NCBI GenBank assembly: GCA_028279725.1 | Contig: JANQNE010000011.1 | Location: 89,872 to 153,871, forward strand | Length of the DNA: 64,000 nt | From: Candidatus Nanoarchaeia archaeon | Lineage (GTDB): Archaea > Nanobdellota > Nanobdellia > Woesearchaeales > JANQNE01 | Direction: 5' to 3' | Shown: positions 38,050 to 54,100 of the stretch, one piece after another | How the letters are laid out: each line of letters starts with the position of its first letter | Numbering within the stretch: the stretch's first letter is position 1 | Position numbers and translations under genes: made by a program | The notes under the pieces: model-generated | The model's database searches: none | What the model was told of the DNA's origin: nothing | What the model saw: only the letters and a program-made list of their open reading frames with translations

Positions 38050-38054
38050 GATGC

Positions 38055-38378
38055 ATGGGGGATATGTTAGAAGTAAAGGCAAAGGACTTTTTTGAGGAAT
38101 ATTCCGGCAAAAGATTCAAGATGAGCGCAGCTGGAGGCATAGTTCCAGCTATTGTGGAAAGGAGAAAAGGAAGATATGAAGTTGTATTTAGTTATGGAGA
38201 TGAGGGGAAGATATATTTTGCACCTTTGAAGGATAACTTTTCTTTTCAGAAAGAGAATGGAGTTCCTGTACTGTATAATGCGTTTGTTCCTACTCCTTCT
38301 GTGAGGATTGAAGTTATAGTTGACGGTGAAAAGGGATATATGGATTATATGAGGAAATTGTTTGATCAAGATGGATAA
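38055..38378 (+). CDS. Hypothetical protein upstream of the tRNA methylthiotransferase
   Basis: About 107 residues from ATG 38055, chosen because a TATA box lies 23-30 bases upstream; the frame extends to 38001 but crosses that promoter. The protein is soluble, mostly beta strands (GIVPAIVERRKGRYEVVFSY, KIYFAPLK, VRIEVIVDGEKGYMDYM). No family recognised. It overlaps the next gene by 8 bases, so the two are coupled. Confidence 0.6.
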   Translation: MGDMLEVKAKDFFEEYSGKRFKMSAAGGIVPAIVERRKGRYEVVFSYGDEGKIYFAPLKDNFSFQKENGVPVLYNAFVPTPSVRIEVIVDGEKGYMDYMRKLFDQDG

Positions 38379-39633
38379 GATCTATATTGAAACATCAGGA
38401 TGCAGTTTGAATCAGAGTGATTCTGAAGTTATGGCTGGATTATTGGAGAAAGCCGGGTTTAAGATAGTTGATAATGCTGATGATGGTGATCTGGTTATTA
38501 TTAATACATGCACTGTGAAAGGTCCTACTGAAAATTCTTTTTGGAAGAGATTAGATGAGTTGAAGGGAAGCAAGAAAGTTATTGTTTCAGGATGTATAGC
38601 GCAGACTGAGCCTTCTAAGTTAGAGGGGTTGAGTTTGATCGGGCCTTACCAGATCAACAGGATAGTTGAAGTTGTTGAGGAGACTCTTAATGACAATGTT
38701 GTTAGTTTGCTTGTTAAGGAGAAAAATGAAAGACTGAATCTTCCTAAGATAAGGAAGAACAAAGCTGTTGAGATAATTCCGATATGTGCTGGGTGTTTAG
38801 GAGATCCTTGTGCTTATTGCAAGGTTAAGGAAGCTCGTGGGGATTTGATGTCTTATGATAAAGATGCTATCGTTAGTCAAGTTATGAAAGCTAGAGCTGC
38901 TGGTGTTAAGGAGATTTGGCTGACTGCGCAGGATACTGGATGTTATGGAAAAGATATCGGTATGGATTTAGTTAAGTTACTGAAGAATGTGCTGCTTGTT
39001 GAGGGAGATTTTAAGGTTAGAGTTGGGATGATGAACCCTAACTTTGTTCTGGAGATGTTAGATGAGCTTATTGAAGTTTTTAAGCATGACAAGATATTCA
39101 AGTTTTTGCATATTCCGATTCAGAGCGGGAATAATGAAATTCTTAAGAGGATGAGAAGAAAGTATAGTGTTGAAGATTTTACAAAGATAGTCGCAAGATT
39201 CAGGGCAGAGATTCCTGATATCGTTATTGCTACTGATATAATATGCGGTTTTCCTGGGGAAACGAAAGAGCAGTTTATGGATTCTGTTGAATTAGTTAGA
39301 AAGATAACTCCTGATGTTTTGAACAGGTCTAGGTTTTGGGCAAGGCCCGGAACTGAAGCTGAAAAGATGGATGGGCAGATCCATGGGAAGGAGACAAAGA
39401 AAAGAAGCCAGTTCCTGACTGAAGTTTTCAGCAATGTTTCTTTGATGAGAAATGAAAGATGGATCGGATGGGAAGGTCCAATAATTATTGATGAAAAAGG
39501 AAAGGATGGGATGATCGGAAGGAATTTTGCTTATAAGTCTGTTATGGTTGACGGAGAATATGAATTGGGAGAAACTGTTAAAGTTAAGGTTGTTAAGGCA
39601 AAAACATTTAATCTAAGAGCAGAAGTCAGATAA
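38371..39633 (+). CDS. Archaeal MiaB-like tRNA methylthiotransferase (t6A type)
   Basis: About 420 residues. It is expected to add a methylthio group to N6-threonylcarbamoyladenosine at tRNA position 37. The N-terminal domain has three cluster cysteines (TSGCSLNQSD, INTCTVKGPTE, VSGCIAQTE). The radical SAM motif reads GCLGDPCAYCKVKEARG, that is Cys-x4-Cys-x2-Cys instead of the usual Cys-x3-Cys-x2-Cys. The HIPIQSGNNEILKRMRRKYS and DIICGFPGET segments and a C-terminal TRAM domain (ETVKVKVVKAKTFNLRAEV) confirm the family. The start is ATG 38371. Confidence 0.92.
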   Translation: MDKIYIETSGCSLNQSDSEVMAGLLEKAGFKIVDNADDGDLVIINTCTVKGPTENSFWKRLDELKGSKKVIVSGCIAQTEPSKLEGLSLIGPYQINRIVEVVEETLNDNVVSLLVKEKNERLNLPKIRKNKAVEIIPICAGCLGDPCAYCKVKEARGDLMSYDKDAIVSQVMKARAAGVKEIWLTAQDTGCYGKDIGMDLVKLLKNVLLVEGDFKVRVGMMNPNFVLEMLDELIEVFKHDKIFKFLHIPIQSGNNEILKRMRRKYSVEDFTKIVARFRAEIPDIVIATDIICGFPGETKEQFMDSVELVRKITPDVLNRSRFWARPGTEAEKMDGQIHGKETKKRSQFLTEVFSNVSLMRNERWIGWEGPIIIDEKGKDGMIGRNFAYKSVMVDGEYELGETVKVKVVKAKTFNLRAEVR

Positions 39634-40704
39634 CATCTTTTGCCTGTAGCCATTTATCTTTATGAAAGGAGCAGCTCTTTTGATCGAGATTCCCAGAGCT
39701 GTGAAATCTCTTGTTTTTGTTATTGTGTTTGTTTGTCTTGTGCTTATTATGTTCTGTGCTGTTTTTGGACCTATGCTTGGTATTCGGATTAGTTCATAGT
39801 AAGATGCTTGGTTTATGTCAACTGCTGAATCGAAATATTCTCTTGCTAATGCAACTTTTGGATCTATTCTTGGAAGCATTCCATCGTCCATGATTCTTGT
39901 GAATTCGCTTACTTTGAAGTTATAGTTTCTCATTAGGAAGTCTGCGTTGTAAAGATGGTTTTGTCTTAGCAATGGTTCTTCTGGAGTGTTTTGCAAAGGA
40001 GTTCCTTTGACTGGCCTGAATCTTGAGTAGAAGACTCTTCTTAGATCAAAGTTCTTGTATTCCCAGTCTGCCATCTTTATGATGTCTTTGTCTGTTGAGA
40101 TGTTGTTTATTATCATCTGTGTGCTTTGTCCTGTCTTCATCTTTGATATCCATGACTGTCTTCTTAGGATGTCTGTCTTGTAGTCTTTGCATGTGCTTAG
40201 TTCTGACATTATGCTTTTGTTTGGTGTTTCTAGGTTGATGCTCATACGGGTTGATAGTTCTGATGCTTGTTTTATGAGTTCGTAAGAAGTTCCTGGCAGA
40301 ACTTTGAAATGGATGTATCCTTTGAATTTTTCTTTGTATCTTAGAAGCTTTACTGCTTCAAGCATCTTTTCTGTTATCTTGTCTGGGTTTGCTGCAATGC
40401 CTGAGCTTAGGAAAAGCCCTTCTACTTTTAGATTTTTTACTAAGTACATGAATATAGAAGAAAGTTCTTTTGGTGTGTATTCTGCTTTGTTCTTTGAGCT
40501 GTTTTTTGCGTTTGAGCAGTATTTGCAGTCAAAGGAGCATGAGTTGCTCATAAGTGTTTTGAATAGAATACAGTTTTTGTTTTCAGCTTTGGCGTGATAG
40601 ATACCTCCAAGGCTGTCTCTTACTTTTACTTCGCAACTCTTTGGTCCGCAGGTGTCGTATCTCCCACCGTCACCCAGAATCTTGGCTTTTTCGAAGATGT
40701 TCAT
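39613..40704 (-). CDS. Radical SAM protein with helix-hairpin-helix domain (DNA modification/repair type)
   Basis: 363 residues of the COG4277 / putative DNA modification-repair radical SAM family. KILGDGGRYDTCGPKSC opens the protein; CSFDCKYC is a canonical Cx3Cx2C motif; ISLETPNKSI-like and RVFYSRFRPVKGTPL segments lie in the barrel; residues about 300-363 (VDINQASYYELIRIPSIGPKTAQNIIS) form a helix-hairpin-helix DNA-binding domain. In bacteria the family often neighbours a uracil-DNA-glycosylase-like protein, not seen here. It overlaps the convergent tRNA enzyme by 21 bases and the recombinase by ATGA. The reaction is unknown. Confidence 0.85.
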   Translation of the reverse strand: MNIFEKAKILGDGGRYDTCGPKSCEVKVRDSLGGIYHAKAENKNCILFKTLMSNSCSFDCKYCSNAKNSSKNKAEYTPKELSSIFMYLVKNLKVEGLFLSSGIAANPDKITEKMLEAVKLLRYKEKFKGYIHFKVLPGTSYELIKQASELSTRMSINLETPNKSIMSELSTCKDYKTDILRRQSWISKMKTGQSTQMIINNISTDKDIIKMADWEYKNFDLRRVFYSRFRPVKGTPLQNTPEEPLLRQNHLYNADFLMRNYNFKVSEFTRIMDDGMLPRIDPKVALAREYFDSAVDINQASYYELIRIPSIGPKTAQNIISTRQTNTITKTRDFTALGISIKRAAPFIKINGYRQKMLSDFCS

Positions 40705-41531
40705 CTTAGACTATCCAACGGGCTTTTTATTGACAATAATCTTGGCATTGCTGTATGGACATAGATATTTGTTGTTTCTATCGAATTATGGCCAAGCATA
40801 GATTGTATTGTTGTAAGCGAACAATCATCTTCTACAAGATGTGTTGCAAAAGAATGTCTTAATGTGTGTGGGTGGATGTGTTTCTTTATACCAGCTTTTT
40901 TTGCAGCGTGTCTGATAATCTCCTGCACACTCCTTTGATGCATATGCCTTCCATTGTTTCCCTGAAAAAGCCATAGGCCTTCATTGCTATTGATATGTTC
41001 AACAAGATTGTCTTTTATAGAATCTGCAATTATGAAGGCTCTGTCCTTGTTTCCTTTGCCTTTTCTGACCCACCCGTAATTATTCTCTAACTCAAGATCA
41101 GTTATCTTAAGGTTCAAAAGTTCACTTACCCTGAGGCCTGCAGAATATAGTAAAGATATCATAAGTTTATGTTTTGGATTAGAGATTGAATTGATCAGTT
41201 TTAGTGTCTCTTCTTTTGTCAGGAAGATTGGCAAAGTTTTTGGTCTTCTGGAGAATTTGATGTTTATGAAGATGTTTTTTCCTAGAACATCCTGCATAAA
41301 GAATTTTAGAGCAGACATGTGGACATTTAATGTGCTTCCACATGCTTTCTTTTGTAGTAAGTAATCCAGATAATCTTTTATCTGTTTCTTTGTTATCTTT
41401 CTTGGACTTGTTTTGTATCTTCTGAAGAATTGATTTAGGCATTGACAATATGTTTTGATAGTCTTTTTGCTAAAACCTCTCCTTAAGCATTCTTTTTTTG
41501 TTAATTCGATCGGATCTATTTTAACCACCAA
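40701..41531 (-). CDS. Tyrosine recombinase, XerA-like
   Basis: 276 residues. An N-terminal SAM-like core-binding domain precedes the catalytic domain with Arg in SAGLRVSELLNL, Lys in GKGNKDRAF, HTLRHSFATHL (His-x-x-Arg), GHNSIETT and the nucleophile Tyr in TNIYVHT. The size matches archaeal XerA, which resolves chromosome dimers. No ATG is at hand; TTG 41531 or GTG 41528 lie about 22-25 bases after a TATA box (41553-41561), consistent with leaderless initiation. It is next to a cassette-like island, so a role in integrating cassettes should be weighed. Confidence 0.9.
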   Translation of the reverse strand: MVVKIDPIELTKKECLRRGFSKKTIKTYCQCLNQFFRRYKTSPRKITKKQIKDYLDYLLQKKACGSTLNVHMSALKFFMQDVLGKNIFINIKFSRRPKTLPIFLTKEETLKLINSISNPKHKLMISLLYSAGLRVSELLNLKITDLELENNYGWVRKGKGNKDRAFIIADSIKDNLVEHINSNEGLWLFQGNNGRHMHQRSVQEIIRHAAKKAGIKKHIHPHTLRHSFATHLVEDDCSLTTIQSMLGHNSIETTNIYVHTAMPRLLSIKSPLDSLR

Positions 41532-41970
41532 ACTGTATTATGGCAAAACTAGCTTATATACTTTGTTCGCACGTGTCCAGTGTCCAGTGAACGTATTTGA
41601 GTTTATTATTTTCTATATAGAAAATAATTAAAAATCAATTTTTAAGATCTCAAAATCAACTCATTAACTCTTTCTAAGCCATAAATTAAGCATAATGCGC
41701 ATAGAAAGAGTTAGCCAAAATTTTCTTACTGCCTAGTAGGTTCACTTCGTTCCCGAAGAATATTTTAAGATAGGTGCCTTCGTTTAATCGCATAAAGAAA
41801 CAAGAATTAGGAAATGCTTCGCACTATCCTATAACAACGATTAAACGGTTTTGTTTCACTCCACCCAAATTTTTACTTACTTTAGAAACAGACGAGAGAG
41901 GGCTAGTCCTAACGGACATTTAGACTTTTACTGCGTAAAAGAAATTGATATAAACAATTATTAAGATTGA
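41532..41970. repeat. Left boundary of the island: hairpin-rich, inverted copy of the right boundary
   Basis: This 439-base gap has no credible gene. It contains hairpins TAACTCTTTCTA/TAGAAAGAGTTA (41665-41676/41702-41713), CGTTTAATCG/CGATTAAACG (41781-41790/41838-41847) and CTTTTAC/GTAAAAG (41925-41941). Six blocks recur as reverse complements, in colinear inverted order, at 48085-48264: GTTAGCC 41710-41716, TTTTCTTACTGCC 41721-41733, CCGAAGAAT 41753-41761, AGATAGGTGCC 41768-41778, TTTTTACTTACTTTA 41870-41884 and GACGAGAGAGGGCT 41891-41904. ACCCAAATTTTT (41863-41874) is a motif shared with the two palindromic elements. Confidence 0.85.
41553..41561 (-). promoter_or_regulatory. TATA box of the recombinase/radical SAM operon
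   Basis: TATATAAGC on the minus strand, about 25 bases before the TTG/GTG start. Confidence 0.5.
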
Positions 41971-43722
41971 TTAAACTTTCTTCAAATCATGTTCAAATCC
42001 AATTCTAGATATGTGATTTGAAAATCTGATTAAAATATCTGATAAATAAGGGTCCTTTAATCTTCCTACTCTTTTCAACGGATAAGACACTGTATCATCT
42101 TCATGTAAGCCTTCTAAACTTTTATTCAAAAATATCTTTGGAATCTCATCCCTGTCATTAATTTCTTCATATTTTTCTTTGATTAACTTAATATGGTTTT
42201 CGAAGCCTAGAGAAGTATTCTTATCTAACTCGTAATTCTCATTCTTTGTAAATTTACATTCTCCAGATATGTTTAAAGAGCATAGATCTAAAGGTAATAA
42301 ATTAGAAGCAAACACTTCTCCAAAATCTATATAATAAGTTTCTTTTTCCCCCTTGAAATATTCTAATGGATAATATTTTCCGGTCTTAGAAAAATTTTCA
42401 AGGTGAAAACTTATTCTGTTTAATTCTTCTTTTTTAGTTTTTTTAAAATCTTCTTCATCGGAGATTTCAAAGATTTTTCCAAAACTTTTTCGAATTTCCC
42501 TCAACAAAAAATCCATACTAGAATTTTTTTTGACAATTTTAACTAAAGCAGCTTCACTAATCTTACGTTTATTTGTTCTCAACAAAATATCACATGGCTG
42601 AGCTAATAAAATATAATAATCATTATTATTTGAACAAAAAATATCTCCTGAAGCGATTGGCATATGGTTCTTATTGAGAAAATCAGCATCTTCGTATCTA
42701 TCATCTTTTAAGATATCTTTTATATCTTTTCGATGTTCTGGGAAGTATCTAATTTCAATTTTGTTGATATCTTTAAGTATCTTTGTGATTTTCTTAATAT
42801 CTTTATCTTTTTTTATTTCTTTCATTAAATCTTCGTTATGAAACAGCCTATATAACCTAACGAATGTTTCTTCTTCTAAGACTCCCTCTCTAGAAGAAGA
42901 TTGAAAAATTATTTGGTCGAAGTGATTAATATCTAAATTCTTTATTTTTTCCAAAGAAGAATTATTAGTCTTATCAATTATCTCAGAATACTTTCTAGTT
43001 AGAATATGTGCATAAAAATTTAAGATAACTAGTTTAATTCCATGTAGAAATTGATCTATCTCTTGAGTTCGCCATTTGCCAAGAGGATAAATGTTATACT
43101 TTTTTTTAAATTCATTGTCCCATTCGTTCCATTCTTCCTTACAACAATGGAGGGTATGTGTAAACAAGCCACAGAAAATTAGACCATCAAATTTCTTTTC
43201 TTCGATAATTTCATCTATATAATTTCTACTATTTTTCCCTTTTCCTAATTCCTTATCAAATAAAATTAAAAGCTTGTTATTAGCATTTACTTTTTTAATG
43301 ATATCCTTCTTTTGAGATTCCCAATCTTCTGGACTGAGTTTATGGAATGTTACCTTATCTTTAAAGACTTCAGAAAGAACAACAAATGACGAGAGATCCC
43401 TTTCTAAATCTTCTTGAGGCTCGTCACCTAAAAGTTTGTTCAATTTATGGTAATATGTGTTCTTTTCTTCTGGAGAAAAGCCTTCAAATTTTTCTTTTAG
43501 CTTTTTCTCTAATACTGCTTTATTTGGAAAAGATTCTTTAAAAATTCCCTTCAGACTCTCATTCTTAGAGATGTCATAAACGGCTTTTGCCTTTCCCAAA
43601 AAGTTTTCTGAAGTTGCTACTACAGACAAATCATTATCAACCAAAACTACTTCCTTGATATTAACAGGATTGAATAATCCCAGAATTCTATTGTCCTTTT
43701 GAAGAGATACTAACTCAGCCAT
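41971..43722 (-). CDS. Unrecognised protein of the GHKL/methyltransferase cassette, possible receiver-like segment
   Basis: 583 residues, last gene of the cassette, overlapping the ATPase gene by 8 bases. The opening segment (VNIKEVVLVDNDLSVVATSE) and a later segment (KLLILFDKELGKGKNSRNYI, then FDGLIFCGLFTHT) resemble the strand-acid-strand layout of response-regulator receivers, with Asp of LFDKEL as a conceivable phosphoacceptor; the similarity is weak. Residues about 365-395 carry MPIASGDIFCSNNNDYYILL then AQPCDILLR, which looks like a conserved motif of unknown function. No nuclease, helicase or membrane segment is recognised. It is probably the partner or effector of the ATPase. Confidence 0.7.
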   Translation of the reverse strand: MAELVSLQKDNRILGLFNPVNIKEVVLVDNDLSVVATSENFLGKAKAVYDISKNESLKGIFKESFPNKAVLEKKLKEKFEGFSPEEKNTYYHKLNKLLGDEPQEDLERDLSSFVVLSEVFKDKVTFHKLSPEDWESQKKDIIKKVNANNKLLILFDKELGKGKNSRNYIDEIIEEKKFDGLIFCGLFTHTLHCCKEEWNEWDNEFKKKYNIYPLGKWRTQEIDQFLHGIKLVILNFYAHILTRKYSEIIDKTNNSSLEKIKNLDINHFDQIIFQSSSREGVLEEETFVRLYRLFHNEDLMKEIKKDKDIKKITKILKDINKIEIRYFPEHRKDIKDILKDDRYEDADFLNKNHMPIASGDIFCSNNNDYYILLAQPCDILLRTNKRKISEAALVKIVKKNSSMDFLLREIRKSFGKIFEISDEEDFKKTKKEELNRISFHLENFSKTGKYYPLEYFKGEKETYYIDFGEVFASNLLPLDLCSLNISGECKFTKNENYELDKNTSLGFENHIKLIKEKYEEINDRDEIPKIFLNKSLEGLHEDDTVSYPLKRVGRLKDPYLSDILIRFSNHISRIGFEHDLKKV

Positions 43723-46219
43723 TTAAGATTCTCCCGAAATCAATTTCAAATTTGTACTTTCGTCCATACTTATTTCTCCCATCTAATAATTCAATAGAAC
43801 AATTCTCAGCATCTAAGAATTGGGAGATTATGAAAAGTCCCAGTCCCCGACCTTTACTCTTACAAGTTATAAATGGTTCAAATAGACTATTTTCAACTGA
43901 AGGGTCAATACCTTTTCCATTATCCCATATCCTTAAGTAAGGACGATCAATTTCAACCATTATCTCTGCGTTATTTATTGACTTTGTTTTCAAATTTTCA
44001 ATAAGCCAATATTCTGAATTTAAAACAATGTTATCAATAATTTGGAATAGTTTTCCACGATTTATTTTTATAGAAAATATTTCAATTGGATTTAGTTTGA
44101 TATTGATATTTTTTTGTGCGAATCTAATGTTATAATAATTCAATTCTTCATGCCAAAATTTTTCTAAGTTGATTATGTCTTTTTGTTCCCTTACATACTT
44201 TAAAGAAGGAGTGATATGTGTTAGTTGCTTCCTAATGGAATTTAATGTACTTTTAACATGTTCAACATAAACAAAGATATCAGAATTCTTAGGGTATTTC
44301 TTCTTAAATTTTGTACTCGCCAATCTTGTTTTATCATAAAGTCTATCTATAATGTTATTTATTTCATGAATCAAAGCTTCAACGGTAATACCTAAACTAG
44401 AAGTTTCTAGTAACATAGGTATTTGTTCTCTCAAATGTTCAATCTCAGTTTTCACAAATTCAGCTTTTTTTGAAATAGTCTGACTTTCTTTAGTTACAGT
44501 ATCTTCCTGCTTCTTAAGCTCATCTCTGATTGAAAAAAGCCTGGTAATAATTCCTCTGGGTGGCAATTCAACGTTAATTAACTCTTTTGCAATATTATTG
44601 ACTTTTCCACTAAGTTCTTTAGTGTTATCTACCACTAGTTTACCATCCCACCCTTTAGTTGAACCTTTGCTCTTGAAGTTAATTATATCTTTTAAGGCAC
44701 TATCTGGAGTAACTTTATCTTTTGCTGATTCTGATACTTCATCACCGATTTTGACTCTCTTAAATTTTGACAGAGATTCTTTTCTAATGAAAGCGTGTAG
44801 TTCTTCTGTATAATCAACAAATTGCTGTAATATTTTGTAAAAATTTAGGTAATAAGACGTTTCGATAAAACCTTCTCTGTTTGTAGTTTCCTTCAAGCAA
44901 CTATTATCTTTTGCTGATATTGAGATATATCCTAAAGTATTGCTAGGTCTTAAACCATACCAAGATTTCCCAGAAGTTTGTTGTTTACTTAAGTTCAACC
45001 AATCATGAGGAACTTTAATTCCGAATCCATCTCTAAAAACTTTAATTCCAGATAATACTTTCATAGTGTCTCTAAACGCTTTTCTTGAATCAAAGATGTT
45101 ATGTGAATCATTAATTTCATTATAAGTTCTACCTAAATCAAAGTAGTAAATATTTCCACTAAATGCTCCAGGAGAAGCAAGCTTTTCATTCACAATAGAT
45201 AATTTATCCATATCCTTTAACTTGTATTCTTTATTAACTTCTAAATAATAATTAGAGTCATCAGACTTAAGAATGTTGTATGTTTTTGATTTTTTTTCTT
45301 TAACTAAAAATTCTCTAAACTCTTTTCCATCATCTTTACTCAGATATTTTTTAAAGAAACTTATTGCCTCTTGATCTCTAGAAGATTTTAGAAAATCAAA
45401 TTTAATTTTTCCTTTAATTGTAAAAACATCTTTAGAATCAAATTCTAAATTGTACTTAATATCTGCTATGTCTAAGATATTTTCTGTTATTTCAAACAAG
45501 TCAATATTATCACCATTAATTGTAAGAGTGAATATGAAATCTGATTGCTCTTTGTATGGAGAAACTAATGAGTAAATTTTATTGATTAAGTCATTTTTAC
45601 TATTTTCCAAATAATCAAGGTCATTTAATCCAGAAATGATTAAATATGTTCCTTTTGGTTTTATCCTAGGAATTATTTCATACTTGGGCTCGACACTTGA
45701 AAGTAGCACGTCATCTTTAAAATCATTCCAACTAAATCCTACATGAAAACATTTTTCCTTCGTGTTTTTCGGGAAAGTATAGATATCTACATTTAATCCT
45801 AACCTTTGTGCTCCCAACCGACCCAATCCTTTATCTCCAAGAGGCGTTCTCCCTTCATCAGTGGTTTGTCCTTTTTTTTTCATTTGTTCTTTAGGAGAAG
45901 CAGAAATAGTCAGAAATCCATTTTGTATTTCTTTTTCAGTCATTCCAAAACCATCGTCTTCCACTATTATTACACCTTTTGATTTTGGATAAAAAGAATT
46001 AAATTCGGTTAATTCTGAATGATTTTTTAAAACTTCAGACGCGGTTTTCCTCGTCTCAATGAATAAACTGGAGTAGCTTGCATCGGCATCATAACTATTT
46101 TTAATCAACTCCAATAATGCCTGCCCATCATCAGTTATCAATTCTTGTCCAAGTCTAAATACAACTGAGGAGTTTATCTCTATTGAAAAATTAGTGTCAG
46201 CTTTAGATTTTTTTGCCAT
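43715..46219 (-). CDS. Protein with two GHKL ATPase domains (Hsp90/MORC-like and histidine-kinase-like)
   Basis: 834 residues from ATG 46219. The N-terminal domain has N-box QALLELIKNSYDADA (34-47), G1 EDDGFGMTEKEI (about 87-98) and G2 GDKGLGRLGAQRLG (about 120-133), as in Hsp90/MORC/MutL-type ATPases. A helical middle region follows. The C-terminal domain is histidine-kinase-like: an H-box-like EALIHEINNIIDRL (His near 616), N-box QIIDNIVLNSEYWL, G1 RIWDNGKGID, F-box LFEPFIT and G2 GRGLGLFIISQFL (about 790). Both nucleotide sites look intact. It is coupled by overlap to both neighbours. It may sense an invader or DNA state and signal by phosphotransfer or conformational change. Confidence 0.88.
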   Translation of the reverse strand: MAKKSKADTNFSIEINSSVVFRLGQELITDDGQALLELIKNSYDADASYSSLFIETRKTASEVLKNHSELTEFNSFYPKSKGVIIVEDDGFGMTEKEIQNGFLTISASPKEQMKKKGQTTDEGRTPLGDKGLGRLGAQRLGLNVDIYTFPKNTKEKCFHVGFSWNDFKDDVLLSSVEPKYEIIPRIKPKGTYLIISGLNDLDYLENSKNDLINKIYSLVSPYKEQSDFIFTLTINGDNIDLFEITENILDIADIKYNLEFDSKDVFTIKGKIKFDFLKSSRDQEAISFFKKYLSKDDGKEFREFLVKEKKSKTYNILKSDDSNYYLEVNKEYKLKDMDKLSIVNEKLASPGAFSGNIYYFDLGRTYNEINDSHNIFDSRKAFRDTMKVLSGIKVFRDGFGIKVPHDWLNLSKQQTSGKSWYGLRPSNTLGYISISAKDNSCLKETTNREGFIETSYYLNFYKILQQFVDYTEELHAFIRKESLSKFKRVKIGDEVSESAKDKVTPDSALKDIINFKSKGSTKGWDGKLVVDNTKELSGKVNNIAKELINVELPPRGIITRLFSIRDELKKQEDTVTKESQTISKKAEFVKTEIEHLREQIPMLLETSSLGITVEALIHEINNIIDRLYDKTRLASTKFKKKYPKNSDIFVYVEHVKSTLNSIRKQLTHITPSLKYVREQKDIINLEKFWHEELNYYNIRFAQKNINIKLNPIEIFSIKINRGKLFQIIDNIVLNSEYWLIENLKTKSINNAEIMVEIDRPYLRIWDNGKGIDPSVENSLFEPFITCKSKGRGLGLFIISQFLDAENCSIELLDGRNKYGRKYKFEIDFGRILNG

Positions 46220-46220
46220 C

Positions 46221-47576
46221 TTAAACAACTTTCCTCATAATTAGAATCTCTTCTTTTGTCATAGTTTTAGTGTTTTTATTTCTAGAAGCCATACGTTTAT
46301 TACAAATATCTCTATCCAATTTTAATACTAATTTTGAACCGTAATGCTCTAAAATTTCTTGCAAAATTTTGTCTAACGGAATAGATATTCCCCCTACATT
46401 TCTATTTCCCACAGTCCAAACCATGTAGCCATCTTTTCGTAAAACTGATAAACAGTTTTTTAGACTATTTCTTAAATCTTCATAAAAATTGATAACCTTA
46501 TAGGTTTTATCCTTATGTTCAACACTAAGATCTGCAATAATTCTCTTTAATGTAGGAGATATATCAAAAAGCTCTTTGCAAACTTTTCTATTAATATCTT
46601 TAGATGTTGAACCACCTAAACTAAGTTTGTCAATGTATGTAGTAATATTTAGAACGTCTTGAGGAATTTTGTTATCAATATCTTTTGTAGGAATAAATTG
46701 AAGCGGTAGATAAGAAAATTGCCCATAAGTAACAGTAGTATGATTGTCTCCATAAGGGGGGGAAGAGATTATCAAATCAATTTTTTTACCATTCATACAT
46801 GGAATTTTTTTAGCGGAATCGCCCAAATGTAATTTTATTTGGTGTTTATATGACCCTTTACTCAACTCATTAGCATCATTTAAATCAGATTTGTGTAAGC
46901 AAAAATGTTCATAATTATTTCGAAGGATTGATTTAAATTTTCCAATCACATCTATTTCTCTACTATCAATATCCTCCTTAGATCTAATATGTAGCTTAAA
47001 CGTAGATGTCCTAGAGTTACTTGATTGTCTTATAGTCTCTCCAAATGCAACCCAAAAAAATCTTCTTGCCCATAGCATATTTTCATCCAGAATTGCTCTT
47101 CTAATTCTTGATAAACTCTGTAATACTTCTTTTGTAAACCATTTGTCTCTATTTACAAAGGATACATCAATAGATAATTTATCATCAGAATCTATTTTGC
47201 TATTCAAACTATCAATTTTATTTTTAATTGCTTTTTCATAGAACGGACCTTTCTTAGCTTTACATAATAGAATTGCTAGTGGATTAATGTCAAGCCCTTG
47301 AAAAGATAGCCCATGATACATACATTCAGCCATAACCGTGCCTGAACCAACAAATGGATCAAGTACAGTTTTGATGTTACTTACATTTTTTACAATGCAG
47401 CTTATTAATTCCGATTGCATTGCTGGAACCATCATTGCAGGATAATTAAAATAAACATGACTTTTTTGTCGTTTTGTATCTTCTTTAAATGACCAATAAT
47501 CTGAATCTTTAGCAATTAGTTCATTGTAAATATTCATATCAATATTATCTTGAACAGAATCAGTCTGGGTGCTCAT
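46221..47576 (-). CDS. DNA methyltransferase (N4-cytosine/N6-adenine class)
   Basis: 451 residues from ATG 47576, whose ATGA overlaps the stop of the HTH gene. Motif I DPFVGSGTVMAECMYHG (about 71-87) binds SAM, followed by QGLDINPLA; motif IV is SSPPYGDNHTT (about 269-279), the catalytic signature of amino-methyltransferases, with SPPY often seen in N4-cytosine enzymes. About 190 residues between them may hold target recognition. No restriction nuclease is recognised beside it, so in the cassette it probably marks self DNA or regulates. Confidence 0.9.
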   Translation of the reverse strand: MSTQTDSVQDNIDMNIYNELIAKDSDYWSFKEDTKRQKSHVYFNYPAMMVPAMQSELISCIVKNVSNIKTVLDPFVGSGTVMAECMYHGLSFQGLDINPLAILLCKAKKGPFYEKAIKNKIDSLNSKIDSDDKLSIDVSFVNRDKWFTKEVLQSLSRIRRAILDENMLWARRFFWVAFGETIRQSSNSRTSTFKLHIRSKEDIDSREIDVIGKFKSILRNNYEHFCLHKSDLNDANELSKGSYKHQIKLHLGDSAKKIPCMNGKKIDLIISSPPYGDNHTTVTYGQFSYLPLQFIPTKDIDNKIPQDVLNITTYIDKLSLGGSTSKDINRKVCKELFDISPTLKRIIADLSVEHKDKTYKVINFYEDLRNSLKNCLSVLRKDGYMVWTVGNRNVGGISIPLDKILQEILEHYGSKLVLKLDRDICNKRMASRNKNTKTMTKEEILIMRKVV

Positions 47577-47848
47577 TTTATATCGCCCCATCTTTGCTGA
47601 ATGTTGGCTAGAAACCTTAATCCTTCATCAGTTATTGAAATTTTAAAAGAATCTTTTTTAGATGGACTATTTTCTTTTCCAATTTTCTCTATTTTGATAA
47701 ATCCATATTTTTCTAGTGCTATACAGTTATTCTTTATTGTAACAAAACTAGTCCCAATTAATCTAGTAAGCTGAAAAAAAGAATTTATAGATTCTTTTCT
47801 TAGCTCTTTCAATATTTTAAATCTTATTTCATCGCTGCTACGTAACAT
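47573..47848 (-). CDS. Winged-helix regulator of the cassette
   Basis: 91 residues: DEIRFKILKELRKESINSFF, QLTRLIGTSFVTIKNNCIAL (helix-turn-helix with recognition helix) and YGFIKIEKIGKENS...KISITDEGLRFL (wing), an archaeal MarR/ArsR-like winged helix of minimal size. It is first in the operon. The half-site CAGTATAG abuts its ATG at 47849-47856, so it or the divergent ribbon-helix-helix protein probably represses the shared promoter. Confidence 0.8.
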   Translation of the reverse strand: MLRSSDEIRFKILKELRKESINSFFQLTRLIGTSFVTIKNNCIALEKYGFIKIEKIGKENSPSKKDSFKISITDEGLRFLANIQQRWGDIK

Positions 47849-47901
47849 CAGTATAGATTTAGAGAAACATTTATATATAAGTTCAGTATAGTTCTATACT
47901 G
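47849..47901. promoter_or_regulatory. Bidirectional promoter with CAGTATAG operator sites
   Basis: One symmetric TATA element (TTTATATATAAG, 47870-47881) lies 22 bases from the minus-strand ATG (47848) and 27 bases from the plus-strand ATG (47909), so it can serve both leaderless genes. CAGTATAG-TT-CTATACTG (47884-47901) is a perfect 18-base palindrome on the plus-strand side, and a third CAGTATAG half-site lies at 47849-47856 on the other. Confidence 0.75.
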
Positions 47902-47908
47902 TTGAACC

Positions 47909-48112
47909 ATGACCTACGCTTTAGTAATTCCACCACAATATCTAGGAGATTTGGTTAAGATTAGAGAAAAAACCAAGACAAGTATAAGAAAACAAATATT
48001 ACAAAGCATAGAAAAACACATTGCTGAATCTAAGAAAACAAAAAATACTTCTAAATATTCTTTTTCAGAAAAAGAACCAAAAACAGCCCTCTCTCGTCCT
48101 ACGGACAAATAG
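47909..48112 (+). CDS. Small ribbon-helix-helix-type protein divergent from the cassette operon
   Basis: 67 residues. Residues 1-40 (MTYALVIPPQYLGDLVKIRE, then KTKTSIRKQILQSIEKHIAE) fit a short beta strand plus two helices, as in ribbon-helix-helix repressors. The last 15 residues (EPKTALSRPTDK end) are coded by the inverted-repeat boundary (from 48085), so the gene runs into the repeat. It is a probable autoregulator acting at the 47884-47901 palindrome. Confidence 0.65.
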   Translation: MTYALVIPPQYLGDLVKIREKTKTSIRKQILQSIEKHIAESKKTKNTSKYSFSEKEPKTALSRPTDK

Positions 48113-48264
48113 TCTGCTTTGCAGGAATTTATATTAAAGTAAGTAAAAACTACGGCACCTATCTGATTCTTCGGCAGTAAGAAAACTCTCGATGAGTCTC
48201 CTTCGGAGCCTCTTCGAGCCACGCCTTGCAGGCTCTCCTCCCTTCGGTCGTCGGGTCGGCTAAC
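48085..48264. repeat. Right boundary of the cassette: inverted copy of the left boundary
   Basis: Blocks AGCCCTCTCTCGTC (48085-48098), TAAAGTAAGTAAAAA (48135-48149), GGCACCTATCT (48154-48164), ATTCTTCGG (48166-48174), GGCAGTAAGAAAA (48173-48185) and GGCTAAC (48258-48264) are exact reverse complements of blocks at 41710-41904, in matching order. Between blocks the two sides differ by insertions of hairpin units, such as CTGC-TTT-GCAG at 48114-48124. No gene is seen between 48113 and 48486. Confidence 0.85.
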
Positions 48265-48407
48265 AAGCATTAAAAGGAAAATCCTTGCAGGATTTTACCC
48301 AAATTTTTTCTCATCTCTGAAAATGCTCCAGCTCTGTTCGGCTTCGCCTCACGAGGTCGCATTTTCGAGGAGAAAAAACTTCTTTTAATGCCGATGTTAG
48401 TTTCAAT
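48258..48407. repeat. Palindromic element 1 (attC-like layout)
   Basis: Ends CTAACA (48260-48265) and TGTTAG (48395-48400), then stem GCATTAAAAG/CTTTTAATGC (48267-48276/48382-48391). Inside are a hairpin AAAATCC-TTGCA-GGATTTT (48278-48296), the motif ACCCAAATTTTTTCTC (48297-48312), stem TTTTTTCTC/GAGAAAAAA (48304-48312/48370-48378) and stem GAAAATGC/GCATTTTC (48319-48326/48359-48366): a branched fold. The right end AGAAAAAACTTC and TGTTAGTTTCAAT are identical to element 2. Confidence 0.8.
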
Positions 48408-48424
48408 CAGCAAAAGATAAATTC
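48407..48424 (+). repeat. 18-base inverted repeat, left copy
   Basis: TCAGCAAAAGATAAATTC; its exact reverse complement is at 48811-48828. The pair brackets the gene at 48487-48777. Confidence 0.85.
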
Positions 48425-48455
48425 TCCATATCAACACATCAGTAAAACCAATATC

Positions 48456-48464
48456 TTTATATAC
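48456..48464 (+). promoter_or_regulatory. TATA box of the 96-residue gene
   Basis: TTTATATAC, 23-31 bases before ATG 48487. Confidence 0.5.
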
Positions 48465-48486
48465 TACTTATTAGTTACAACAATCT

Positions 48487-48777
48487 ATGAAAGATCTTGA
48501 AAGCAAATCAAATGTAACATATCCAATTCAGTTAGGAGAAGTAGAACCTTCCTTACAGAAATGGGGTGATTGTGATTTCTTACAACATGAAGGAAAGGCT
48601 GTCATTTATCGAAATGATTTACGATTTCAAGCAGCATATGAATCAGATAAACTGAACATTGTTGGTCATGTTGAATCAGATATGCTTCCAGCTGTTGAGA
48701 AACTAGAGTATATTATTGGTCAAGTTAGGAGAGTTGGTGATGATGAAGTGCAATCATTACTTCCTCCATTAAAATAA
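48487..48777 (+). CDS. Hypothetical protein bracketed by inverted repeats
   Basis: 96 residues, soluble (MKDLESKSNVTYPIQLGEVE...HVESDMLPAVEKLEYIIGQV). Strand-rich N-terminus and a helical C-terminus; no recognised family. It has its own TATA box and lies between palindromic elements 1 and 2 inside an 18-base inverted repeat, so it looks like a single-gene accessory cassette. Confidence 0.65.
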   Translation: MKDLESKSNVTYPIQLGEVEPSLQKWGDCDFLQHEGKAVIYRNDLRFQAAYESDKLNIVGHVESDMLPAVEKLEYIIGQVRRVGDDEVQSLLPPLK

Positions 48778-48810
48778 TTCTTGTATTCAATATTGTATTT
48801 TCTAGTTAAG

Positions 48811-48828
48811 GAATTTATCTTTTGCTGA
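48811..48828 (-). repeat. 18-base inverted repeat, right copy
   Basis: GAATTTATCTTTTGCTGA, reverse complement of 48407-48424. A hairpin (CTGAC.CTGCG-GA-CGCAG.GTCAG, 48825-48850) follows that the left side lacks. Confidence 0.85.
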
Positions 48829-48870
48829 CTCTGCGGACGCAGGTCGTCAGAACTTCGTAACTGGCGACGA

Positions 48871-49016
48871 AACTAACAATCGTTTGGAGGTTTCCACGTC
48901 GTTCGCTCTGCTCACTCCGCGTCCACCCAAATTTTTCCTTCCGTCCGAGTCTCTTCACTTCGTGATGAGCCTCTGGAGTCAGAAAAAACTTCTCCAAACT
49001 CCATGTTAGTTTCAAT
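48871..49016. repeat. Palindromic element 2 (attC-like layout)
   Basis: Ends CTAACA (48873-48878) and TGTTAG (49004-49009), then stem GTTTGGAG/CTCCAAAC (48882-48889/48992-48999), the motif ACCCAAATTTTTC (48925-48937) and AGAAAAAACTTC (48981-48992). Same layout and orientation as element 1, but the variable stem has different bases that still pair. The interval 48778-49075 holds no credible gene. Confidence 0.8.
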
Positions 49017-49075
49017 TCTTTCTGAAACCAAAAGCTTATAAATCTCCTTTTTAACACTCTTCTTGAGGTGATCAT

Positions 49076-49312
49076 ATGGTCAATTTTGGAAAACAATCAA
49101 TTCTCGCTGGGGTAGTCTCTTTCATTGTTTTATTTCTGGCTTTGCAGGGGACAATTGAAATGGTCTTCATCAATTTTGCAGTATTGCTGATTGCTATAAT
49201 ACTGGGCATAATAGCTGTTGCCAAAGAGCAGAAGGTATCAGGGATTATCGGTATCTGCATCGGATCTGCAAATCTACTCATATCAATATCATTGATCTTA
49301 TTAAATAATTGA
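49076..49312 (+). CDS. Small membrane protein (DUF4190-like layout)
   Basis: 78 residues with three hydrophobic segments (ILAGVVSFIVLFLALQG, MVFINFAVLLIAIILGIIAV, IIGICIGSANLLISISLILL) separated by AKEQKVSG. The layout resembles DUF4190-type small membrane proteins; this is weak. A GAGGTGATC ribosome site (49065-49073) lies before ATG 49076 and a TATA box (about 49036-49043, TTATAAAT) upstream. Confidence 0.6.
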   Translation: MVNFGKQSILAGVVSFIVLFLALQGTIEMVFINFAVLLIAIILGIIAVAKEQKVSGIIGICIGSANLLISISLILLNN

Positions 49313-49359
49313 TCTTTTGGTCTCAGAAAAATCTCAAATCAAATAAACTAAGCATTTTT

Positions 49360-49824
49360 TTAATTTAGATAAAAAAGAAAGAAATTCAAGACAGCTGCAA
49401 AGCTGACCCATAATATATAAGGGATCAAAAGATAAGCAGAGGTCTTGTTAATCCTATAGAAGCAGACTATTGTAAATAAGATTGCATTCCATAAGAATAT
49501 TATCTCTATAAAAGCAAATAAAGGCTTTTGCAATCCGAAAAACAGCACAGACCACATAGCATTCAAAAATATCTGAATTCCAAAGAAAGTAAAAGCCATA
49601 TCCTTATTTTTAGATTTTTCAATCCAGACAAGATAGAGCGAGATCCCCATCAAAAGATAAAGTGCTGTCCAGACTGGACCAAAGACCCATGAAGGGGGGT
49701 TAAAAGTAGGTTTAACCAGATCAACATACCATGTCGATACTGAAGTAGATGTAAAAAATCCTCCGATAGCACTGGCTAAAAACGGAATAATCAGTGATAT
49801 AAAAAGCTTGTATATTTTTTTCAT
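49360..49824 (-). CDS. tspO: TspO/MBR family membrane protein
   Basis: 154 residues with five membrane helices and the family signature KPTFNPPSWVFGPVWTALYLLMGISLYLVW, which forms the porphyrin/sterol-binding cavity. Bacterial and archaeal homologues bind tetrapyrroles and take part in stress signalling. Its ATG overlaps the upstream gene by 4 bases. It is the last gene of a minus-strand set behind the giant surface gene. Confidence 0.93.
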   Translation of the reverse strand: MKKIYKLFISLIIPFLASAIGGFFTSTSVSTWYVDLVKPTFNPPSWVFGPVWTALYLLMGISLYLVWIEKSKNKDMAFTFFGIQIFLNAMWSVLFFGLQKPLFAFIEIIFLWNAILFTIVCFYRINKTSAYLLIPYILWVSFAAVLNFFLFYLN

Positions 49825-50330
49825 ATTTTCCTCGCATCATAAGCCCAATGCAATAAAGCCTGCCTTTGCTTTGGCCTGCAGGTATATTTTCCTTTCACAC
49901 AATTTTTTCTTACAGCTCCCACATGCCTTTTTATCGCTTTCCATCTTTTGATCTGTATCTTATCTTCATCTATTAGCCTTCTTCCCATATAGTATCTGCA
50001 ATACCATTGAAACCATCCTCTCGGATCGTGTCTGGAATTTATCCATCCTTTTTTTATCCAAACTAACAGAGGAAGTGAAGCGTTTATACTAAAATAATTC
50101 AGTTTAGGATCATGCTTCTCATGACATAGCTTAGCTTTAGCAAACCAGGACTTAGGAAACTCTTTCCTGCAGTCTGTCATGTATTTTCCTCCAAAAACAC
50201 CCAGTTCAAGCATCTGTTTAGGAGTAAGTTCTGGTTTAAATTCAGGATCAAAGTTTTTTCCAATAGGCTCAGTCAAATAATAAACATAGTTCTTCTGCAT
50301 AAGGTCATTAACAACAACTTTTTTCCTCAT
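49821..50330 (-). CDS. Conserved hypothetical protein paired with tspO
   Basis: 169 residues, soluble and rich in Trp, Tyr and Lys: YVYYLTEPIGKNFDPEFKPE, LTPKQMLELGVFGGKYMTDC, WINSRHDPRGWFQWYCRYYM, GRR. I recall near-identical motifs in uncharacterised proteins of bacteria and plants, but no function. GGTGATA before ATG 50330 is the ribosome site. Its overlap with tspO suggests joint expression. Confidence 0.8.
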   Translation of the reverse strand: MRKKVVVNDLMQKNYVYYLTEPIGKNFDPEFKPELTPKQMLELGVFGGKYMTDCRKEFPKSWFAKAKLCHEKHDPKLNYFSINASLPLLVWIKKGWINSRHDPRGWFQWYCRYYMGRRLIDEDKIQIKRWKAIKRHVGAVRKNCVKGKYTCRPKQRQALLHWAYDARKI

Positions 50331-50362
50331 TTTATCACCTTAATCCTATATTGATAAGATCT

Positions 50363-51103
50363 TCACTTAACGATTATCGAAGCTTTATCATCAAATGGAT
50401 TTGTTCTCATCGATATTGAAAGCAGATAAGGGCAGTTTTTGTTCAGATAAAACATGTAATGGATCCATTCAGTCACAAGTGCCTCATATACCCTTAAAAT
50501 ATCTTTTTTTAGATGTTCACTATCCTTTTTAGTGCTTGTCTTGATCCCTTTTCTCTTCTCAAGCTCATCAGTAAGATGGAAAACAGCCTTCAAAAGGTTA
50601 GTGAATGAATCAAACTCAAGCAAATTTGGGTTTTCTATAAGCCTTACAAAAAACCTTTTATTATCAATAAGTATGGATCTTAGTCTTTTGATGTTGACTT
50701 TTTTAAAATCAATATCAAAATTATGCTTTCTCAAGGTCCTTATCACATCATGAAATTTCTTTTCTGACCAGTCATCTTTTACTACCAGCTCTTTTTTTAT
50801 CTCTTTGATCTCAGGATCATACTTGGAAAGAAACTTTAAAAGAGGTGTTCCTCCATCACTAAAAAAAACTCCAAGGATCATGCTTATCTTGTCCAGGCTT
50901 ACCTCTTTCCGGTGCTTAATCAAGATACTATTTACAAATAATGTTACGATCAATACATTGATAGGCAAAAAAGCCAGTGCAGTCATGCTCCAAAGAAAGA
51001 TATGATTAATATCATTAAAAAAGAAAAAATGAGTACAATATAAAACAGCAGATAAACTAACTAAAATAAAAGCAAACTTAAATTCCCATCTTATTTTTTT
51101 CAT
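50363..51103 (-). CDS. Membrane-anchored conserved hypothetical protein
   Basis: 246 residues with two N-terminal membrane helices (FAFILVSLSAVLYCTHFFFF, IFLWSMTALAFLPINVLIVTLF) and a helical cytoplasmic C-terminal domain of about 180 residues (KKELVVKDDWSEKKFHDVIR..., LTEWIHYMFYLNKNCPYLLS). Family not recognised. AAGGAGG (51110-51116) just upstream, overlapping the stop of the giant gene, is a strong ribosome site, so it is probably cotranscribed with it. Confidence 0.7.
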   Translation of the reverse strand: MKKIRWEFKFAFILVSLSAVLYCTHFFFFNDINHIFLWSMTALAFLPINVLIVTLFVNSILIKHRKEVSLDKISMILGVFFSDGGTPLLKFLSKYDPEIKEIKKELVVKDDWSEKKFHDVIRTLRKHNFDIDFKKVNIKRLRSILIDNKRFFVRLIENPNLLEFDSFTNLLKAVFHLTDELEKRKGIKTSTKKDSEHLKKDILRVYEALVTEWIHYMFYLNKNCPYLLSISMRTNPFDDKASIIVK

Positions 51104-51114
51104 TTTATGCCTCC

Positions 51115-54100
51115 TTAATCATTATGCGGATCAGACTGTCCTGTGATGATTATCGATCCGCTGCAGGATCCACCGACAGCTATAGCAGGAATTCCCAGAC
51201 CATAATAAGTTGTTTTTTTAGGTGTTGGATCAGTTTCAGTTCCTGGAACAGAATCCAGATCAAGCTCTACATTAGACTCTGACAGGTCAGTGCCTGAGCC
51301 ATAAGTAAAAGGATTGCCTCCATATTCTAAAAAAGTAACTTCTATCGAGCTTGTATTGCAAGAAAGATTTGTTCCTGAAAGCAGGACATCTAACCCAGAA
51401 TTTCCCAGATTTGTAACATTGATCTCCTGATTTAGATTTGTCGTATTTGCTCCAAGAGCGATCTCTCCAAAGTTTACGATAGATGGATCAATAGTAAATG
51501 CAGATAATGTATTTAACTCTGTAGTTGCTGACCCATTAGTTCCAGTTCCCTGGGAATCCTGGGGAGAGATCAAAAATGTCCAGTTAGTAAAAGAGCTGTT
51601 AGACCCTGCATCTGTAGGTATTGCATAATGTGAAACATTGAATGTGCAATTATAACTGATCGTATTTCCTGTGCCATCACTGTTATCTGTGCAGGCTGCA
51701 GTATAATGATCGCTGTTATTATCATCAGCATCAGCCCCAGATGTAGTCAGAAACAGATATCCTGTTGCATTAGAAATATCAGCAAATCCATTAAGATCTG
51801 TGATTGTAGCACTTCCGATAACTGTCGTGTTAGTTCCAGAAGACAAGGTGATATCACTTCCACTATTTATGCTGACATCAGAAGGGTCAGGGACATCATT
51901 TTGGACGGCAAAAGTTGTTGTCTCTGAACTATTGATATTTCCTGTGGTGTCATTAGCTATAATACGAACGGTGTAGGTTCCGATAAGACCTGGAGCAGCA
52001 TAAGTATTGTCAAAGTTGTCTCCTCCGGAATTTGTCAATGTAATCTGGCTGATGCTTCCATTTGGCAGAGTTATATTTGCAATAACTGCAGAAACACCTA
52101 TCAGATCAGTTATATTTGCATCTATCTCAAAACTGGCTGTTGTGTTTAGACTGCTTCCTGGAGTTATGTTAAGAGCAGTAACAGCTGGAGCAGTCGTATC
52201 TGTGAATCCTAAAGTAAAATAATCTCCGTTTGTAAAATTAATGTCTGTAAAGCTTACAGTGTTTCCTGTCTTTGTTCCAGTACTCTCTATCGTTGCATTA
52301 TCAAATGTTCCGTCATCATCAATAAGCAAGACAAAACTATCATAATCTGCAATAGTGAGGTTATCTGATATATCAAATGCAACTGTTACAAGGCCAACAC
52401 TGTCTCCATCGCCATTACCTCCATCATCTTTGTCAGCTCTCCAGGATTGGTTCATCCTGCTGTAATTGACAGGAGCGTCTGTTGAGATGCTTATTCCGCC
52501 ATTGTTATGTGCAACTGTCAAAGAATCGTTCAGATCAAGAGATGTGGGAGCTGAAATCGTTACAAAAGAAATTACTGCTGAAGATATATCAACTGTAGCG
52601 CTGCAGTTTCCAGGAAACTGTCCAATGCCATTGATATCATTGTTGTGCGGAGCAGGAAAGCCGTAATTGTCTTCAACTCCAAAAAAATCCCTTCCATACT
52701 TATCTCCAAGATAGATATCAACCATCTCAAGCTCGCAGGTGGTCAGCACCCTGTCATAAATTATTATCTCAGCAATTTTTGAGTTATGGTGCTGGTTTCC
52801 AGCCCTATTTTGGTTTATCCTATAATGCTCAAAAACCCTTCCTTCAGTAGTGTTTCCGGAATTTGCCTGCTGCCCTTCATTATACAGCACAACATTATTG
52901 CCATCATGTGTAACAGAATATAGCTTGATCTCATTACTAAAGTTTTCAAAATTAAATTTAGTTGATGCCCCATATCTAAAAGCATTGCCGCTATCTGTGT
53001 AATCTATCTGAAAATGATCTACATGTGCTGGTTCGCCATTTGAAAAAAATGAATCATATAATGAAGGGCTTGTGTCTCTACTTTGAATAACTGTAAATAT
53101 AGTAAAATCACTTGTGTATTGTGATGCGAGTTCATGTCTTAATGTGTCTCCAGCAGATTTGCTAAAATTAAGTACAGAAAGCCCGTTAAACTGATCGGTA
53201 ATATATTCAGGAGCTCCTTTACCGGAAACATTGGTAGCATTATGACCATAGCTTGATTTGTCCTGCCAGCATAATACTTCCTGGTTTTCAGATGTTACAG
53301 CTGTGCTGCAGCTCTCATCAGTATAAAGTGTTGAATTGTCTGTTGCATCATACCAGACTCTTAAGTTGCCTATATCTGATGGATCTTTTAATTCTGCTGT
53401 AAAGACAGAAGATACTGAACTGTTAATATTTGCAGCAGTGTCATTTGCAATAATAGTAATATTATACTTTCCTGCAAGAACAGGTATAGTGAAATTTGCA
53501 CTATATATATCTCCTGCAATATTTGCCAATGTAACCTGCTGTATCGTATTATTTGGAAACGTAATATTGGCGATAACAGTGTCCAGATGAGTATCTGTAA
53601 CAGTAGCATTAATCTGCAAAACATGGCTAGTATTAAATGTCTGTCCTGAAGGATAAAGGCCTGTAACACCCGGATTAGTCGTGTCAAGAGTGATATTTCT
53701 ACTATCTGTCGTATTGCTATTGCCTGCTAAGTCCATGACTGTTACATTATAATAATATGCTGCATCACTTAATCCGGTAAAGTTGATGCTTCTTTGTGCA
53801 GTTGTGTATGTTGTCTCATTTAGCAACCCAAATGTTGAGTTAAATAATCTGAATGTAATATTGGCTTCATTTGTTTCAGTGATACTAACATTAATATAAA
53901 CAAAGTTCTGGCTTATGATAGTGTTGTTATCCTGCGTTCCTGTGCCATAAGAGATCAATGGAGGTGTTGTATCGATTGTTACAGTCCTGAGCTCTGTCTG
54001 ATTCTTTTGTCCGCTTGCTGCAACTGCATAACTGATAAATGTGTGATCTCCATCTGCAAGATCTGAGAAGTTATTCACATATTGATTTGCTGAGGCATTA

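Follow-up and report, generated by a model that had tools for sequence, protein, structure and literature searches.

Folded attC-like sites with a linked XerA-family recombinase suggest an integron-like cassette platform in Nanobdellota archaea

Integrons are textbook gene-capture machines, and two palindromic elements in a 64,000-nucleotide stretch of DNA from a Candidatus Nanoarchaeia archaeon (the window; contig JANQNE010000011.1 of assembly GCA_028279725.1) raise the question of whether they are recombination sites of such a machine. A first-pass annotation had likened them to integron attC sites. We confirmed both elements (attC-A, element 1, and attC-B, element 2, the latter at the array's outer end; Table 1). 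Both fold far better than shuffled sequence, with z-scores of -5.1 for element 1 and -2.8 for element 2 with its flanks. The motifs reported as common to them are exact (ATGTTAGTTTCAAT twice, AGAAAAAACTTC twice, plus ACCCAAATTTTT), and their stems do differ by compensation (GCATTAAAAG/CTTTTAATGC versus GTTTGGAG/CTCCAAAC). attC-A has the order ATTGAAACTAACA-TC-S1-GAAGTTTTTTCT..ATTTGGG-hairpin-S1'-TGTTA. The sites lie 461 bp apart, their R boxes are GTTAGTT and GTTAGCC, and the minus strand is the better-folding strand of both (G.T wobble). The predicted exchange points are G48396^T48397 (+ strand) for attC-A and G49005^T49006 for attC-B. An Rfam 15 scan of positions 38000-51000 gave no match near a gathering score. 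It is very probable, in our assessment, that the two elements are attC-like recombination sites that close two cassettes of an integron-like platform.

When 145 relatives were searched at the DNA level, 55 had matches, and their neighbourhoods repeatedly showed a site of one kind. Its parts are, in order, ATTGnnnTAACA, an unpaired TC, S1 (a helix of 11 bp), AAGT...hairpin...ATTTGG, in most cases another hairpin, then S1' and TGTTA. The sites are roughly 75-190 nt long, with structured hairpins. We built a covariance model from 20 short example sites, none taken from the window, and used it in place of the loose pattern CTAACA..TGTTAG, which has four unrelated matches elsewhere in the genome. 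Within the window's 1.42-Mb genome, this model from other genomes matched two places only, which are exactly the two annotated elements, both in one array. Within the order, 131 of 353 genomes had a model match for the site; for the phylum-wide sample the figure was 125 of 371. Both counts are lower bounds, with few candidates scored per genome. Nearly all genomes are MAGs.

A pattern scan of named genomes placed the site in Woesearchaeota, Pacearchaeota, Nanoarchaeota and Aenigmatarchaeota, and under a handful of further labels, which may reflect errors in binning. Matching sites were also seen under Patescibacteria, Dojkabacteria, uncultured bacterium or Methanosarcinales labels (L157, L175, L189, L151, L207, L209), and one of these contigs (L157) has sites with a linked recombinase; either cross-domain spread or mis-binned contigs would explain them. 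Matches labelled Thioploca, Methanosarcinales, Patescibacteria and others, which may be mis-binned contigs, were kept out of our claims. A match on a Bacteroidia contig (L163) was treated as chance because the covariance model did not match it. An exact-pattern search of viral contigs gave no matches, and thus no evidence for viral carriage.

We observed double-sided changes at 10 of the 11 S1 pairs, both in the 20-sequence set and in 139 sites, the latter in an alignment fitted to the covariance model that therefore leans towards it. When the S1 partners were slid by 1-3 columns, pairing fell from about 90% to 35-52%. Across the 11 pairs, 95.6% of cells are paired and there are no conserved bulges; the sole conserved bulge of the site is the TC between the R arm and S1. 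A G.T pair at the base of hairpin 1, which on the opposite strand is an A.C mismatch, is kept in 131 of 135 cases. With DNA energies, 187 of 194 sites fold better on one and the same strand (P = 3e-31). From covariation and predicted folding, the site thus has the folded single strand, R box, stem, variable terminal structure and strand preference of an attC. The two or three extrahelical bases that attC sites have in the L stem (PMC2727003) are absent here. The departure from the GTTRRRY consensus noted earlier for the window is family-wide, with a fit in just 64 of 197 and 60 of 197 R boxes for the two arms. By themselves, covariation and strand bias would also fit a structured RNA.

No strand mixing occurred in any of 61 loci (197 sites), and across the 88 neighbouring pairs of the first set, sites are a median of 883 bp apart, with extremes of 79 bp and 11.6 kb. 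The sites are not placed at random with respect to gene boundaries. In every one of more than 30 loci with both a recombinase and an array, a non-random sample since loci were picked for having sites, the tyrosine recombinase lies at the same end, on the same strand and downstream in site orientation; its distance from the sites is 0.35-6.7 kb in the first set. Reversed, this layout is that of a classical integron, with the recombinase by the primary site and facing away from the array, then attI, then the cassettes, and with the folded strand corresponding to the bottom strand of an integron. A closed Pacearchaeota chromosome (CP061211.1) carries six sites and then int, and a 511-kb Pacearchaeota contig carries six or seven sites with int 275 bp from the last. 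The fairest estimate of linkage comes from the 14 good assemblies that bear sites: nine have a recombinase and sites on one contig, no more than about 12 kb apart, and in five the recombinase lies elsewhere in the assembly, several of those sites being near contig ends. Array organization, strand bias, covariation, and the linkage and polarity of the recombinase can, as far as sequence goes, be read directly from these loci.

One single-contig genome (G118) gave no match at the covariance-model threshold; it has BLAST-level pieces of the element at 672-1637 and, across the contig origin, a recombinase of the same polarity ~3.7 kb from them. Two genomes of the same genus (G248 and G250) are syntenic at the recombinase locus, with the recombinase and its downstream region in common, and have a detectable site beside the recombinase in G248 only, a difference in array presence that is suggestive only, as the far flank in G248 lies outside the assembly. 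Sites in L096, L098, L105, L106, L113, L119 and others are a few hundred bases to 2 kb from contig ends, which suggests that assemblies break at arrays and that array counts are too low. Five recombinase matches contain one in-frame stop (G136:C3:3241, G153:C12:1500, G317:C7:948, G045:C2:115684 and G039:C3:105511), four of them near sites. Such matches would suggest decaying integrases, which are found in many bacterial chromosomal integrons.

The palindrome that we call the attI-like site ends 133 bp before int in the window (predicted exchange point G41710^T41711, + strand). About 18 loci carry, 94-250 bp before int, an attI-like ATTGnnnTAACAyCTATTAAACG with its own short stem. The window site is divergent; in the clade of its recombinase, palindromes of the TAACwCnnTATATGC...GAGTTA type replace that sequence, and related integrases have TAACTCTTTATATGC (L301), TAACACTTTATATGC (L282) and TAACTCAATATATGC (L303) in the same place. 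attI-like and attC-like sites are unlike in structure, and the attI-like site at int has half of the attC-like motif in common. Within 300 bp upstream of int, CACTGGWCA was found at 8 of 36 loci compared to 0.45 expected, and it may be a regulatory or accessory recombinase site. This box is often doubled (window, L058, L097, L111, L114, L119, L131, L190).

Homology across genomes that covers a site starts at ATTG or TAAC. A site and its tail are therefore part of one cassette, and the flank upstream is part of the next; the edge between cassettes falls at the AAC/GTT triplet, where integrons also have it. Of 276 cross-genome matches, 79 continued for 40 nt or more beyond the tail, but only 5 reached 20 nt or more upstream of the head. 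The two ends of a cassette are complementary to each other, with a mean local score of 29.8 compared to 19.4 for the ends of other cassettes (P = 2e-36); the score across one site is also 19.4. To our knowledge, cassette-specific terminal inverted repeats have no counterpart in classical bacterial integrons. The attI-like site, the cassette boundary and these repeats are evident in the DNA itself.

Cassette content is diverse and accessory, including methyltransferases, MFS, GmrSD, Fic, NUDIX and GNAT proteins and, as read from ORFs, RelBE-like toxin-antitoxin pairs. Bacterial integrons have a strong bias in cassette gene orientation; orientation here is mixed (40 versus 62). A PADLOC PDC-S18 candidate defence gene, 81% identical between copies (L280:9777-10688 and L279:5996-6904), occurs in cassettes of two Pacearchaeota genomes at different array positions. 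Divergence of the flanks has blurred the boundaries of a cassette common to G429 and G486 (81% aa).

From left to right on the + strand, the window platform consists of the recombinase gene (- strand), the attI-like site, cassette 1 with attC-A, and cassette 2 with attC-B, and the array has these two cassettes only (Table 1). The earlier description of single genes between elements holds for the 609-bp cassette but not for the ~6.7 kb between the recombinase and element 1, a cassette with four or five genes. The three overlapping genes at 41971-47848 encode a type II methyltransferase, a protein of 837 aa that has two HATPase domains, and a match-less protein of 583 aa, and they look like an undescribed restriction-like defence operon on one cassette. 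The region 41720-41960 recurs at the array ends of L042, L045, L046, L051 and L052. We rejected a reading of 41680-41960 as an inverted third element, since this region adjoins the attI-like site and forms cassette 1's far arm, which is complementary to the other end of the cassette. Adjoining the array's outer end is a gene for a TspO/MBR family protein (49360-49824; Pfam 1.5e-49), and a few genes past the array lies one for a predicted surface protein of 2312 aa (51115-58053) with internal DNA repeats (52433/55064 and 53254/55975, 65-66% identity).

Table 1. Features of the recombinase-cassette platform, in window coordinates
Feature	Position	Strand	Basis
Array-linked tyrosine recombinase, 276 aa, XerA family	40701..41531	-	Pfam PF00589 2e-42
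Two overlapping CACTGGACA boxes, recombinase promoter region	41574..41589		Upstream-box scan
attI-like site, TAACTCTTTCTATGC...TAGAAAGAGTTA palindrome	41665..41713	-	14-pair stem
Cassette 1, 6.7 kb, attI-like site to attC-A	41711..48396		Boundary inferred from cross-genome homology starts
Cassette 1 terminal arm	41720..41960	+	Inverted similarity to 48083-48245 (TTTTCTTACTGCC..GATAGGTGCC..TTTTTACTTACTTTA..GACGAGAGAGGGC)
Cassette 1 gene, 583 aa	41971..43722	-	No Pfam or PADLOC match
Cassette 1 gene, 837 aa, HATPase_c_3 / HATPase_c	43715..46228	-	Pfam 1.6e-14 and 1.7e-12
Cassette 1 gene, DNA N4/N6 methyltransferase (type II MTase)	46221..47591	-	PF01555 6e-14; PADLOC MTase_II 4e-116
Cassette 1 gene, small winged-helix-like protein	47573..47848	-	Pfam HTH_34 1.9e-4, under cut-off
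Small ORF, 67 aa, possible cassette 1 gene	47909..48112	+	ORF only, no family match
Cassette 1 terminal arm, attC-A side	48083..48245	-	Inverted similarity to 41720-41960
attC-A (element 1)	48257..48408	-	CM R1 65.4 bits, E 1.3e-11 genome-wide
Cassette 2, 609 bp	48397..49005		ATGTTAGTTTCAAT copies 609 bp apart
Cassette 2 left terminal inverted repeat TCAGCAAAAGATAAATTC	48407..48424		100% complementary to 48811-48828
Cassette 2 gene, 96 aa	48487..48777	+	No family match
Cassette 2 right terminal inverted repeat	48811..48828		Perfect 18-bp repeat with 48407..48424
attC-B (element 2), array's outer end	48870..49017	-	CM R1 39.1 bits, E 2.8e-5 genome-wide

We assessed the window recombinase against models of both candidate families. 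It scored 236.6 bits with NF040815 (archaeal XerA), above the cut-off of 220, and 194.7 bits with TIGR02249 (NCBIfam integron integrase), under the cut-off of 265. Other linked proteins scored 172-242 with NF040815, some under its cut-off, and seven other array-linked recombinases scored 132-215 with TIGR02249, all under its cut-off. The window recombinase aligns end to end with XerA structures (5hxy, 4a8e), including the catalytic motifs. IntI4 (2a3v) aligns in two blocks, 15-181 and 240-318 versus 17-180 and 195-273 of the query, with 58 inter-block residues in IntI4 compared to 14 in the window recombinase. About 44 residues are thus missing where the IntI-specific domain (near patch III), considered essential for integrons of bacteria, lies; the insertion that the first-pass annotation had proposed to look for is absent, and the protein is of the XerA family. 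Linked recombinases aligned over 198-276 aa only. No second full tyrosine recombinase was found in the window's genome. In a recombinase tree, the array-linked proteins do not form one clade; six unlinked ones (L254-L257, L265, L266) make up two small all-unlinked groups, and the other six unlinked ones nest among the array-linked ones. Housekeeping XerA as the sole explanation is weakened by these separate groups of unlinked XerA.

The resemblance to attC arrays therefore survives in part. It extends to the layout (same-strand arrays, cassette-sized spacing, AAC/GTT cassette edge), a linked tyrosine recombinase of fixed polarity, the attI-like site and one preferred folding strand, but not to strict membership. 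Having no IntI insertion, no strict GTTRRRY boxes and no extrahelical bases in the L-like helix, the system falls, by the criteria tested, outside the IntI/attC family; it works like an integron.

We propose that the single-stranded minus strand of a site would fold into a stem that carries a 2-nt bulge (TC) and branches at its top. The XerA-family recombinase would bind the folded R arm (TAACA/TGTTA), which would be exchanged with the attI-like site, or with another folded site, at the AAC/GTT triplet. Cassettes would be inserted at attI and excised as circles. In a circle, the cassette inverted repeats would flank and lengthen the attC stem, and in an array they would draw neighbouring attC hairpins together. 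Single-strand recombination, the exact cleavage bond and the role of the repeats are what we infer here, and chief among these points is that the XerA-family recombinase of the window would be the acting enzyme, with catalysis on the folded strand. The genomes examined showed no recombination product, no circle and no strain polymorphism.

Two alternatives assign the sites to known recombinases. One is a canonical integron, of the kind reported for 75 MAGs of archaea, in which ordinary attC sites are worked by an IntI-type integrase. It shares the layout, the AAC/GTT crossover triplet and the folded-strand logic, and integrons with IntI have been reported in Archaea including Nanoarchaeota (PMC9668308). 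We consider it very unlikely, given a window recombinase that lacks the IntI insertion and fails TIGR02249, as do seven further array-linked ones, and linked recombinases that aligned over 198-276 aa only. Moreover, GTTRRRY fits about a third of R boxes, the S1 helix has no extrahelical bases, and the window's genome holds no second full recombinase. A similarly small probability goes to a pdif-like Xer/dif system, in which the host chromosome-dimer recombinase would exchange double-stranded modules at dif-like sites without single-strand folding. The recombinase is indeed XerA-family and the sole full one in the window's genome, and XerA acts on dif in archaea (PMC2958812). Hairpins of roughly 75-190 nt with strand-specific folding are unlike 28-bp dif sites, however; some genomes have further XerA proteins in separate clades unlinked to arrays, and attI-like and attC-like sites differ structurally.

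The remaining alternatives involve no cassette recombination site. Structured non-coding RNAs or transcription terminators between accessory genes would explain the strong RNA-style covariation and the stable hairpins. They would have to be reconciled with the lack of an Rfam family match, a polarity fixed towards the recombinase whatever the orientation of neighbouring genes, the half-motif in common with the attI-like site at int, homology that breaks at TAAC and inverted repeats specific to each cassette, and we judge this extremely unlikely. Least credible are non-autonomous transposons (MITEs) or dispersed repeats accumulating in islands. Their hallmarks of terminal inverted repeats, AT-richness and repetition near contig ends are present, but the window's genome has two copies only, both in one array, with stems that differ by compensatory change and are not copies; each of the 61 loci keeps one orientation throughout, and the unit of similarity is the site with the cassette end, not the repeat alone.

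Returning to attC-like sites in an integron-like platform, we lean towards a separate integron lineage, common across DPANN archaea, that would have a XerA-family recombinase without an I2 domain and folded single-strand sites without extrahelical bases. The TC bulge, G.T pair and three-way junction would choose the strand, and the inverted repeats would be a handle for capture or synapsis; the lineage would be an independent integron invention or an intermediate of the kind that seems to be missing between Xer/dif and IntI. The co-dependence of the IntI I2 domain and attC extrahelical bases poses a chicken-and-egg problem of origin, with XerCD and CTX phage named as its sole partial parallel (Escudero et al. 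2016, PMC4792948). An integron architecture with neither feature makes the question of origin directly testable. A literature search, with preprints outside its scope and subscription papers scarce, found no description of the system. Ghaly et al. (2022; PMC9668308) searched with models of IntI and canonical attC and reported archaeal integrons in 75 of 6718 genomes; some Nanoarchaeota attCs in that set could overlap our sites. Tools tuned to IntI and canonical attC could overlook DPANN cassette arrays, which many of these supposedly minimal symbionts may hold. If so, such arrays are a plausible route for restriction, toxin-antitoxin and surface-modification genes into DPANN genomes.

In the pdif modules of Acinetobacter plasmids, gene modules are likewise exchanged by Xer recombinases, but the flanking sites are short, dif-like and double-stranded, whereas those here are long, folded and all in one orientation. 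Archaeal XerA/dif (NF040815; 5hxy, 4a8e) has the same recombinase family and a similar protein length; XerA works on chromosomal dif, while the recombinase here sits at arrays of structured sites. XerCD-dependent CTX phage integration also combines an I2-less Xer recombinase with a folded ssDNA site without extrahelical bases (PMC4792948), although the phage hijacks host XerCD and has no cassette array, and the recombinase gene here lies with its array. The closest likeness in architecture is to integrons (IntI/attI/attC), with a recombinase at one fixed end, an adjoining attI-like site, tandem same-strand sites, cassette spacing, accessory genes, a folded single strand with a variable top and an AAC/GTT exchange triplet on the same side. 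Unlike integrons, the system has a XerA-family recombinase without the IntI-specific insertion, GTTANNY-like R boxes, an unbroken S1 helix without extrahelical bases, a TC bulge, a nearly invariant G.T pair, a branched top with AAGT..ATTTGG and cassette-specific terminal inverted repeats, and its sites occur in about a third of sampled Nanobdellota genomes.
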